From assembly GCA_028868545.1 (NCBI GenBank), contig JAGWUF010000002.1, positions 62,001 through 126,000 on the forward strand: a stretch of DNA of 64,000 nucleotides. Reading direction: 5' to 3'. This stretch comes from Lysobacteraceae bacterium (GTDB lineage Bacteria > Pseudomonadota > Gammaproteobacteria > Xanthomonadales > Xanthomonadaceae). A program made the position numbers and the translations under genes. Under the pieces are notes generated by a model. It made no database searches. It was not told where the DNA came from and saw only the letters and a program-made list of their open reading frames with translations. Shown piece by piece: positions 1 through 4,458 of the stretch (its first letter is position 1; every line of letters begins with the position of its first letter).

Positions 1-492
1 CTTGTCCGGGTGCAGCGCGGCGTAGCACAGCGAGAATGCCCCGCCCTGGCAGATGCCCAGCAGGTTGACCGCCGGCAGGCCATGCGCATTGCACAGATAC
101 TCCATCGCGCCACCGATGAAGCGTTCGATGTAGTCCTCCAGGGTGAGGTAGCGGTCGGAGCGGTCGGGGTAGCCCCAATCGATGATGTAGATGTCCTCGC
201 CGCGCTCCAGCAGGCCCTTGACCAGCGAACGGTTCTCCTGCAGATCGACCATGTAGGGGCGATTGACCAGCGCGTAGGCGATCAGGGTCGGCACCCGCGC
301 CGTGGGCGCATGCGCACCCTTGAAGCGGTACAGCACCACCTTGCCGTCGCGCCAGACTTCCTCGCGCGGGGTGACGCCGAAGTGCACGTCGTCGATGACC
401 TGCAAGGTCTGCATGCCGGCGCTGAGCTTGCGTTGCAACTTGCTGATTTCTTCCGCCAGCGATTCGGGCGTGATGTTCAATGGGCCGTTCAT
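1..492 (-). CDS. phaC: Class III poly(3-hydroxyalkanoate) synthase subunit PhaC (partial, C-terminal part lies outside the window)
   Basis: Minus-strand reading starts MNGPLNITPESLAEEISKLQRKL... and continues open to the window edge with the lipase-box-like GICQGGAF typical of PhaC. It lies 1 nt after phaE. Confidence 0.9.
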   Translation of the reverse strand, partial: MNGPLNITPESLAEEISKLQRKLSAGMQTLQVIDDVHFGVTPREEVWRDGKVVLYRFKGAHAPTARVPTLIAYALVNRPYMVDLQENRSLVKGLLERGEDIYIIDWGYPDRSDRYLTLEDYIERFIGGAMEYLCNAHGLPAVNLLGICQGGAFSLCYAALHPDK

Positions 493-493
493 T

Positions 494-1594
494 TCAACGC
501 TTCCTTGCCGCAGGCTTGGCGGTCTTCACGGCTGTGCGGGGGACGGCTTTGCCGGCGGTTTTCCTGGCCGCGGGCTTGGCCACTTTCGCGGGTTTTGCGC
601 GCTTGGCTGGTGCGCTTTTGACCGATGCGGCCGGTGCAGGCTTGGCCGGCATTGGCCTGACGGCCGACTTTTTCGCAGGTATCGCACTGACGGATGCGGG
701 TGGAGCGGCGGCAGCCGGTGCTTCGGCAGTGCGCTGCAGACGCCGCAACTGCCGCTCCAGTTCGGCGATCTTGCGATGCGCGCTGTCCAGTTCGGTACGA
801 CCGGGCAGCCCCAGCAGGGTGGCGGTCTGTTCGCCGATGGCCTGCGCCGCGCCACGCAATTGCATTTGTGCGTTGGCCAGTTCGCCGAATGCACGCCGAT
901 ACTCGGTGGTCAGTGCAGCCTGTGCCCAGGCGTCCTCGGCCGCATCCACCCACAGGTCGAACAGGGCGCGCACGCTGCCCAGCTGGCGGCCGGGTTCTTC
1001 GCGCTCGGCCAGTTTCGATTCAAAGATCGCGAACGCCTGTTTCGAAATCTTGGCCAGCAACTGGCCGTAAGCATCCTGTGCGGCCTGCTGGCGCAGCTGT
1101 GCCTTGCCCAGTGCCTGCAGGCGCTCCTGATGTTCGCGAGTGAAGCCGAACGCCGGCACGCTGAGCGATTTCATTGCCTCGTTGCGCATGCCGGCCAGCC
1201 ACGGCGCGGTGGTTTCGCTCCACTGCATGAAATTTTCCAGCCCGGGCCCGCGCATGCCTTCCAGCAGGCCGGCAAACGGATGGCTGTCGCCGAAGGCATC
1301 GCGCCAGGCCGTGGCCACGTCGCTGGCGTTGTGGTCGCGACCTGCAAACTGCGTGGCCACCTGCTGCATCTGCGCCAGCCAATCGCGGCTTTGCCGTTTG
1401 AAGTGCTCCAGCACATGGCCCATGCCGTTCTGCCCGCCGACTTGCGGATTTGCCTGCGGCAGCCAGCCATCCAGCATCCCGCGCAGGCCGTGCATGGCAT
1501 CGCCACCTGCCGCCGGCGCTGCACCCCGCAGTGCGTCTTCCCACACGCCCCAATACTGACGCGCCAGTGCCGTGAAATCGTCGGTTGTCGCCAT
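494..1594 (-). CDS. phaE: Class III poly(R)-hydroxyalkanoic acid synthase subunit PhaE with a long Ala/Lys/Pro-rich C-terminal tail
   Basis: 366 aa ORF, PhaE-like body (MATTDDFTALARQYWGVWEDALR...), immediately upstream of phaC on the same strand. Confidence 0.88.
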   Translation of the reverse strand: MATTDDFTALARQYWGVWEDALRGAAPAAGGDAMHGLRGMLDGWLPQANPQVGGQNGMGHVLEHFKRQSRDWLAQMQQVATQFAGRDHNASDVATAWRDAFGDSHPFAGLLEGMRGPGLENFMQWSETTAPWLAGMRNEAMKSLSVPAFGFTREHQERLQALGKAQLRQQAAQDAYGQLLAKISKQAFAIFESKLAEREEPGRQLGSVRALFDLWVDAAEDAWAQAALTTEYRRAFGELANAQMQLRGAAQAIGEQTATLLGLPGRTELDSAHRKIAELERQLRRLQRTAEAPAAAAPPASVSAIPAKKSAVRPMPAKPAPAASVKSAPAKRAKPAKVAKPAARKTAGKAVPRTAVKTAKPAARKR

Positions 1595-1746: not shown

Positions 1747-3534
1747 TCAGCGCGGCATCGCCAGATTTTCCGCGGCCAACGGCTTGCCCATCCGCGGCAC
1801 CGTGGCCACCACCGCGTCGGCGGGCAACGCAGACTTGCCGTCGAGAACGGCATCGACCCGATCCAGCGCCGCGTACACATACGGCAGCAGCGGCAGATAA
1901 GCGGCGGCCATGTGCGGCAAGGCCAGGAAAGCATCGAAATGCTGGGCATTGCGCACCTGCCAGTAGCGCACGTCGCGGCCAGCCGCCTTGGCCATCGCCA
2001 CGTAGGGCGCGCTGGAGAAGGCCTGCGGTACCAGTCCGTCGTCGGTACCGTGGATCACCACCACCGGCAGGCCCTTGCGCGGCAGTGCGGCGCGTGTTTC
2101 AGCAATCCCATTGCGTACCCGCTGCGCATCCGCGCCGGCGCCTGTCCAGAGATTGCGCAGGCATTGCAGGCCGGCAATGCCCAGGTCGGCAAGCGGCTGC
2201 GGGTCGACGATGCCCACGCCCGCGCCGGGCGGAATGCCACTGCCATCGGCGACCCACGCGGCACGCTCCGCATCGGTCGCCGCGCGCGGCTGCAGATCCG
2301 CGCCCAGCGTCGCATAGCGATAGCCGCAGGGATGCGCGTCGTGCGGGTAGCGGCCGTAGGCGGAGGCATAACCCACCGCCACCGCGCGCCACAGGTCGAA
2401 GCCCACGCTGATCGCGCCGGCGCGCAGTGCGGCATCGGTCCAGCCGGCGGCGCGCAGTTTCGCCAGCGCGTCCTTCTGCAACGCGTCCGCGGTCGTGCCG
2501 GACAGCAGGCCGCGCGCGGACAGCGCCGCGCACTTCGCGTCCAGGCCCGGCATCGCCGGAATGCCCAGCTGCGGCAGCGCGCAGGGCATCAGCAGCGCGG
2601 CCTCGGTGGTGTAGTCGTACAGGCTGCGCGCGCCGTGCCCTTCGGCCAGCACGTTGGGCTCGCCGGCCACCACTGCGTCCAGCCACGGCTCGCCGTCTTC
2701 CGCCGCGCGCAGCACCGCACCGCCACCGTTGGAAATGCCGACCGCAATCACGCGGGTGTTTTCGAAGGTGAACGGCGCCTGCTGCGGCAGCTGCGCATCG
2801 AGTGTGGCCAGCGCGAACTGCGCCGCCTGCTTGACGTGGCGCCCCCAGTCGGCCTCCGGGTTGTCCTGCGAATGCGCGTGCTTGTAGGCGATGCCGGAAC
2901 CCACCGCCGGTGCCGGTTTGAACGCCAGCACGGCATCGGCCGGTGCCACCGTGCCGTCTTCGGCGATGCCCTGCCCCGCATCGAGATCGAAGTAATCGGT
3001 GCCCGCGCCCTTGTCGGTATAGGCCACTGCGCAGCCACGCGGCAGGCCCCACGCGCCGGCAACTGCAATTGCGCCGTAGATGCCGCGCGAGCCCGATGAT
3101 GCGGCCACCACCACGCAGCGCTTGTTCGCATCGAAGGCATCCGGCAGCTGCACCAGCACGCGATGCGGCTGGCTTGCACCCGACACCCGCGCGAACGCAC
3201 TGAATTCACGGCCCGGCACGTTCGCCATGCTGCCGTACAACGTGCCGTAACCGCCACCGGGCGAAAGATCGGCAATGCCGCGCCAGTTGCTCCACAACGC
3301 ACGTTTGCGCAGTTCGGCCGGGCTCGGATGCGCGACGTCGGCGAAACCCGGCGGCAGCATCGACTGCAGGCCGGCAAGGCCCTGCCCGCCGGTGAGCAGG
3401 TCATCCTGCCCGCGATGTTCGGTGACGCGCGGCTGGCTGAACATGGCGGAAGTTCCTTTCGTGGCGGGCGCGGTGGCGCAGGCGGCCAGCAAGGCGGTGG
3501 CGGCCAGCAAGGCGCAATGACGGAGTGTGCTCAT
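1747..3534 (-). CDS. 3-hydroxybutyrate oligomer hydrolase family protein, predicted lipoprotein
   Basis: 595 aa from MSTLRHCALLAATALLAACATAP. It has 3HBOH-family sequence (QDDLLTGGQGLAGLQSMLPPGFADVAHPSPAELRKRALWSNWRGIADLSPGGGYGTLYGS...). The longer ORF call to 4407 runs antisense over the SDR gene and was trimmed. Confidence 0.88.
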   Translation of the reverse strand: MSTLRHCALLAATALLAACATAPATKGTSAMFSQPRVTEHRGQDDLLTGGQGLAGLQSMLPPGFADVAHPSPAELRKRALWSNWRGIADLSPGGGYGTLYGSMANVPGREFSAFARVSGASQPHRVLVQLPDAFDANKRCVVVAASSGSRGIYGAIAVAGAWGLPRGCAVAYTDKGAGTDYFDLDAGQGIAEDGTVAPADAVLAFKPAPAVGSGIAYKHAHSQDNPEADWGRHVKQAAQFALATLDAQLPQQAPFTFENTRVIAVGISNGGGAVLRAAEDGEPWLDAVVAGEPNVLAEGHGARSLYDYTTEAALLMPCALPQLGIPAMPGLDAKCAALSARGLLSGTTADALQKDALAKLRAAGWTDAALRAGAISVGFDLWRAVAVGYASAYGRYPHDAHPCGYRYATLGADLQPRAATDAERAAWVADGSGIPPGAGVGIVDPQPLADLGIAGLQCLRNLWTGAGADAQRVRNGIAETRAALPRKGLPVVVIHGTDDGLVPQAFSSAPYVAMAKAAGRDVRYWQVRNAQHFDAFLALPHMAAAYLPLLPYVYAALDRVDAVLDGKSALPADAVVATVPRMGKPLAAENLAMPR

Positions 3535-3648
3535 GCGCCGACCATAGCGCGCGCACCGGCACGGCGCATCGTACCTTCGTCCCACCCCGCCAGCGCGCGA
3601 TCCTGCTAGCGTATGAAGCCCCCATTGTTCGCAAAGACAGGTTGCACC

Positions 3649-4458
3649 ATGAGCGACATGTTCCTGCAAGGCCGCACCGCGCTGGTGACCGGCAGCACCT
3701 CCGGCATTGGCCTTGCCATCGCCAAGGGCCTTGCCGCCGCCGGCGCGAAGGTGGCGATCAACGGCCTGGGCACGCCCGAGCAGATCGCTTCCGCGATCGC
3801 CGATGTGGATGCCGCGGGCAACGGCGGCACGACGCACTTCGGTGCCGACCTGCGCGACCCCGCCGCCATCGAGGCGATGATGGCCGAGCTTGCCGGCTGG
3901 TCGAACGGCGGCATCGACATCCTGGTCAACAACGCCGGCATCCAGCACGCGGTGCCGCTGCACGAAATGCCGGTGGCGAAGTGGAACGACATCATCGCCA
4001 TCAACCTGTCCTCGGCCTTCCACACCATGCGCACGGCGCTGCCGGCGATGGCGGGTCGTGGCTTCGGGCGCGTGGTCAATATCGCCTCGGTGCACGGTCT
4101 GGTGGCGTCGAAAGACAAGGCGCCCTACGTGGCCAGCAAGCATGGCCTCGTCGGGCTGTCCAAAGTCGCGGCGCTGGAATACGCCGCGCAGGGCAGCCGC
4201 GATTCGGGCGGCGTCACCGTCAACTGCATCTGCCCAGGCTGGGTGGAAACCCCGCTGATCGAGCCGCAGATCGAAGCGCGCATGCACGGCGGCAGCCGCG
4301 ACGACGGCGTGCGTGCACTGCTGGCGGAAAAACAACCCAGCCTGCGCATGACCCTGCCCGCCGAGATTGCCGCGCTGGCGGTGTTCCTGTGCCGGCGCGA
4401 AGCCCACAACATCACCGGTGCCGCGCTGCCGGTGGACGGTGGCTGGTCTACCCAGTAA
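3649..4458 (+). CDS. Short-chain dehydrogenase/reductase, probable D-3-hydroxybutyrate dehydrogenase
   Basis: Rossmann TGSTSGIGLAIAKGLA, NNAG, YVASKHGLVG active site and C-terminal NITGAALPVDGGWSTQ, typical of BdhA-like SDRs. Genomic context is PHB genes. Confidence 0.85.
   Translation: MSDMFLQGRTALVTGSTSGIGLAIAKGLAAAGAKVAINGLGTPEQIASAIADVDAAGNGGTTHFGADLRDPAAIEAMMAELAGWSNGGIDILVNNAGIQHAVPLHEMPVAKWNDIIAINLSSAFHTMRTALPAMAGRGFGRVVNIASVHGLVASKDKAPYVASKHGLVGLSKVAALEYAAQGSRDSGGVTVNCICPGWVETPLIEPQIEARMHGGSRDDGVRALLAEKQPSLRMTLPAEIAALAVFLCRREAHNITGAALPVDGGWSTQ

Follow-up and report, generated by a model that had tools for sequence, protein, structure and literature searches.

The stretch of DNA that we analysed (64,000 nucleotides, hereafter the window) carries the gene for PhaE, a subunit of the class III PHA synthase, and the start of phaC (Table 1). 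The whole core of PhaE matched both family models in a profile search, over the curated cut-offs of 25.7 bits for PF09712 and 154.95 bits for TIGR01834. The first 164 residues of PhaC have TIGR01836 as their best match, and the whole gene is present in the genome as an intact open reading frame of 356 aa immediately downstream of phaE (L184, 6423-7493, minus strand), within the ∼350 to 360 aa expected of a phaC adjacent to a class III phaE.

Table 1. Features of the phaE-phaC region, in window coordinates
Feature	Position	Strand	Basis
phaC (class III), N-terminal 164 aa inside the window	1..492	-	TIGR01836 match
phaE, class III PHA synthase subunit, 366 aa	494..1594	-	PF09712 E=3.9e-56 (191 bits); TIGR01834 188.4 bits
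Basic Ala/Lys/Pro-rich tail, final 61 residues of PhaE	497..679	-	Translation; predicted disordered
AAGGAAG, Shine-Dalgarno-like sequence of phaC within the final phaE codons, encoding terminal A-R-K	500..506	-	Sequence, genus comparison
Ala/Pro/Ser linker from core to tail, ∼residues 289-305, one E	680..730	-	Translation, AF2 coil
C-terminal helix of the core, residues 266-290, after the LGLPGR motif	725..799	-	AF2 helix; likeness to the PF05597 C-terminal helix

AGGAAG or a close variant precedes phaC in 22 of 23 members of the genus (orthologs L033 to L055), and the terminal ARKR of PhaE is conserved in the genus because the codons AGG AAG form this Shine-Dalgarno-like sequence. Several other genera have an ATGA overlap between the two genes. 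The genes adjoining phaE, at window positions 1747 to 4458, are for a hydrolase of 3HB oligomers (PF10605, E 3e-127) and for a short-chain dehydrogenase that may be a 3-hydroxybutyrate dehydrogenase; these neighbors fit a PHB turnover cluster, consistent with PHB metabolism.

The final 61 residues of PhaE comprise 13 K, 6 R, 19 A, and 10 P with no D or E, and their codons together with the TGA stop account for positions 494 to 679. The re-count agrees exactly with the preliminary description, which had quoted a tail of 61 residues with 19 K/R and no D/E; the onset of the basic, acid-free stretch lies at about residue 306. Lysine is preferred over arginine in the tail, with a K/(K+R) share of 0.59 versus 0.17 in the core despite DNA of 67% GC, and the GC content of the tail (0.67) equals that of the core (0.66). 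When the tail's own bases were permuted within codon positions in 20,000 trials, the shuffled tails contained on average 5.9 K/R and 5.3 D/E, and none of the 20,000 reached 19 K/R. Among the 65,648 stretches of 61 aa in the six-frame open reading frames of the window, the PhaE tail was the sole one with at least 19 K/R, no D/E, and at least 10 K. The shuffles and the six-frame scan rule out chance or GC bias as the origin of the tail. A frameshift or read-through artefact is also ruled out, with the phaE stop abutting the phaC start throughout the genus. With phaC intact and its ATG 1 nt beyond the phaE stop, the tail must be read in frame rather than arise from a frameshift.

An AlphaFold2 (AF2) model of PhaE, obtained with 37 sequences, shows a helical core with block pLDDT values of 76 to 95 across most of residues 141 to 290, followed by coil from residue 291 to the end, with pLDDT mostly between 53 and 66. 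The core closes with LGLPGRTELDSAHRKIAELERQL, which is similar to the closing sequence of the PF05597 phasin, LGVPGRDDLNALTQRVERLTAEL; in both proteins the basic tail comes directly after this phasin-like helix. Comparison with PF05597 by hhalign covered 38 to 50 columns, with an E value of 4e-4 and a probability of 36% for the family PhaE proteins and an E value of 5e-5 and a probability of 69% for the outgroup PhaE proteins. By itself, the PhaE studied here scored 13.6 bits (E=0.10) against PF05597 versus a gathering score of 28.8 and falls short of the level for a phasin domain; it does share the AKP-rich basic C-terminal tail of PF05597 phasins. In some relatives (G103, G146, G147, and G153) PF05597 was weakly over its cut-off at the PhaE locus, over positions 53 to 125 only and in the C-terminal part of PhaE. 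This local similarity suggests that PhaE and PhaF-type phasins may share a C-terminal module by common descent, and coiled-coil similarity could contribute to it. The resemblance of the tail to those of PhaF and histone H1 (and of AlgP) noted in the preliminary description holds in composition, in predicted disorder, and in position after a phasin-like helix. A structural search of the PDB with the AF2 model returned nothing at an E value of ≤0.001, and no sequence relatives of PhaE were found in the PDB.

PF09712 is present in 268 of 298 Xanthomonadaceae genomes and in 51 of 54 genera according to the profile search. We extracted 94 family PhaE loci, which after removal of one duplicate and two broken or ambiguous sequences left 91 clean ones. 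Every one of these 91 cleanly delimited proteins, covering all 29 sampled genera, ends in a basic Ala/Lys/Pro-rich tail of 40 to 203 aa with a median net charge of +17 (range, +6 to +43) and ∼3.6% D/E, and net charge follows tail length closely (r=0.92). Absence or frameshifting of the tail in close relatives had been named beforehand as evidence against the tethering idea, and instead the tail is found throughout the genus and the family. Tail identity was 0.46 within the source genus (shuffled, 0.38; core, 0.64) and 0.41 between genera (shuffled, 0.37; core, 0.55). Given that tail identity barely exceeds that of shuffled sequences while composition is steady, charge and composition are kept rather than sequence. 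The long tails of genus g18 (L076, L077, L102, and L106) have a conserved non-basic motif, (M)KDWVARN, near their end, amid low-complexity sequence.

The poor conservation of tail sequence and the variable length (40 to 203 aa) would suit a role without binding, as an entropic bristle or a solubility aid on hydrophobic granules, or as tolerated low-complexity drift. The charge is nevertheless one-sided, with D/E depleted and K enriched against the GC bias in all 29 sampled genera, and drift or a neutral bristle is disfavored because neither would fix the sign of the charge. We consider a non-binding role unlikely.

Outside the family, we compared samples from the rest of the class and from other Pseudomonadota classes and scored a tail as basic when the net charge over the last 40 residues of PhaE was at least +6; core ends in the outgroup were placed by profile, so that tail boundaries there are approximate. 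Basic tails by this measure were found in 88 of the 91 family proteins, in 26 of 37 sampled from the rest of the class, and in 5 of 17 from the phylum's other classes; two more genomes of the same order also have them, with net charges of +10 and +12. As class III PhaE proteins in other Pseudomonadota classes are mostly tailless, synthase activity as such can do without the tail. The tail is a lineage-weighted addition and not an enzyme requirement, and the trait fades outward from the family.

Granule number and inheritance depend on PhaM, PhaF, or PhaH linkers. The preliminary description had proposed that the PhaE tail replaces a separate linker of the PhaF or PhaM type. However, a 220-aa phasin of the PF05597/TIGR01837 type (E 2.4e-42; L056, 1303-1965, minus strand) is present in the genome and has an AKP tail of its own, the last 68 residues containing 18 K/R and 2 D/E in KPA-type sequence. 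A Phasin_2 protein is also encoded (L064). The PF05597 phasin is present in all five other searched genomes of the source genus, and K/R-rich tails of the same type as that of PhaE occur in all 29 other cleanly delimited family phasins; outside this count is the L166 phasin, whose boundary was mis-set by the automated delimitation and whose tail is visible by eye. Of 160 family genomes, 120 encode both PhaE and a full phasin, 23 have PhaE without a full phasin, 12 have the phasin without PhaE, and 5 lack both, in a tally that combines two profile-search tables and treats PF05597 matches with E values of ∼1e-3 to 1e-6 as noise or as PhaE itself. A full PF05597 phasin therefore accompanies PhaE in 120 of 143 PhaE-positive genomes. 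Family genera g10 and g44 have a PF05597 phasin without PhaE, plainly AKP-tailed at the g10 loci read.

Replacement would agree with the remaining 23 of the 143 PhaE-positive genomes and with the search of the source genome with the PhaM model NF043076, where the best match, located elsewhere in the genome, reached 14.6 bits versus a cut-off of 38. Tail charge is nonetheless alike with or without a phasin, with medians of 16.5 for 8 phasin-minus loci and 17 for all other family loci (p=0.82, uncorrected for phylogeny). Replacement fails for the source genome because a tailed phasin coexists with PhaE and genomes lacking the phasin do not have a more basic PhaE tail, and we regard it as very improbable overall; it may apply in the phasin-minus minority of the family. 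A genome search with the PhaE tail as the query gave one weak second match only and is too insensitive to count H1-like proteins, since it missed the known phasin tail. The best reading is that the tailed PhaE adds to the phasin linker rather than standing in for it, with its role as a tether suggested by analogy.

PhaM, PhaF, and PhaH have one end on the granule and the other on DNA; for PhaM, binding and activation of PhaC have been described as well (PMC13052382). The C-terminal domain of PhaF was measured as disordered and yet binds DNA (PMC3574117), while the KPAA tail of AlgP is required for the spacing of polyphosphate (polyP) granules (PMC9239181). By analogy with these proteins, we give a somewhat better than even chance to a role in which the disordered cationic tail of PhaE tethers the synthase and nascent granules to the nucleoid, beside the tailed phasin. 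In this Thermomonas-group genome, PhaE would then consist of three parts, namely, a helical core as the partner of PhaC, a helix like that at the C-terminal end of PhaF-type phasins, and the disordered Lys/Ala/Pro tail, which would most likely bind polyanions without sequence specificity, foremost DNA. With the PhaE-PhaC complex kept at the nucleoid surface, nascent granules would consequently be kept there too, for spacing and inheritance, in the manner of PhaM in Ralstonia and PhaF in Pseudomonas, and the AKP-tailed PF05597 phasin could share or take over the tethering during granule growth. We count in favor of tethering the non-random tail, its family-wide presence, the kept composition, the lysine preference, the phasin-like helix, the predicted disorder, and the like tails of the phasins in this genome and the family. 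Against it, the composition also suits RNA, polyphosphate, and acidic proteins such as PhaC, the tail is comparatively short, most class III PhaE proteins of other Pseudomonadota classes lack it, and a second tether would be partly redundant beside a tailed phasin.

The strongest rival to tethering assigns the tail another binding partner, polyanionic or acidic. The tail could be an electrostatic arm for acidic PhaC, the granule surface, polyphosphate, or RNA that tunes assembly or co-localizes PHA with polyP, with nucleoid binding incidental. The net charges are suggestive in this respect (PhaC, -14; PhaE core, -3; tail, +18), and the KPAA-tailed AlgP associates with polyP granules. On the other hand, core and tail charge do not covary across genera (r=0.02), the tail is of the type found in proteins with DNA as the documented ligand, and PhaF is abundant in the polyP granule pellet though not enriched there (PMC9239181). 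We consider such an arm rather unlikely, though a serious candidate. The same lack of correlation rules out intramolecular charge balancing between tail and core.

Extending the tethering role beyond this genome, we tentatively propose, as something less than an even prospect, that in Xanthomonadaceae and many other Gammaproteobacteria the class III synthase is nucleoid-bound via PhaE and that granules are born on the chromosome and later passed to the tailed phasin. Such two-stage tethering has not been described before for class III synthases among the open literature found, where we also found no counterpart of the PhaM, PhaF, or PhaH linkers for class III systems.

Like the Pseudomonas phasin PhaF (PF05597/TIGR01837), PhaE has a disordered K/A/P-rich tail after a coiled-coil-type helix, in a granule context, with short local profile similarity, but it lacks the full phasin domain and is an obligate synthase subunit. 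Its tail is also shorter than the repeat region of PhaF or AlgP. PhaM of Ralstonia/Cupriavidus joins the binding and activation of PhaC with DNA binding through a histone-like C terminus (PMC13052382), and PhaE would unite the same two roles; the proposed likeness is one of role, and the source genome has no match to the PhaM model over its cut-off. AlgP of Pseudomonas likewise has an H1-like KPAA tail that organizes storage granules, but it acts on polyP and has far longer, regular repeats; the comparison with PhaE concerns its tail.

The closest precedent in which the PHA synthase polypeptide itself bears such an extension is Cobetia PhaC2, with a basic, AAKP-containing, H1-like C terminus for which a role as nucleoid anchor instead of PhaM was proposed (PMC8686332). 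Unlike PhaE, it is a class I PhaC, its extension is genus-specific, and a PhaM homolog was reported absent (PMC8686332). A synthase-borne H1-like tail had thus already been proposed; what is new is its occurrence on class III PhaE, its near-universality in a family, and its coexistence with a phasin. We found no description of a basic tail on class III PhaE in the open literature, most subscription papers being outside the search. If PhaE is a linker, then a single subunit would couple placement, activation, and partition of the synthase, and the length of its tail would be a handle on granule number and spacing. The tails of 40 to 203 aa, together with the tailless homologs in other classes, form a natural series for the effects of charge and length on granule positioning.
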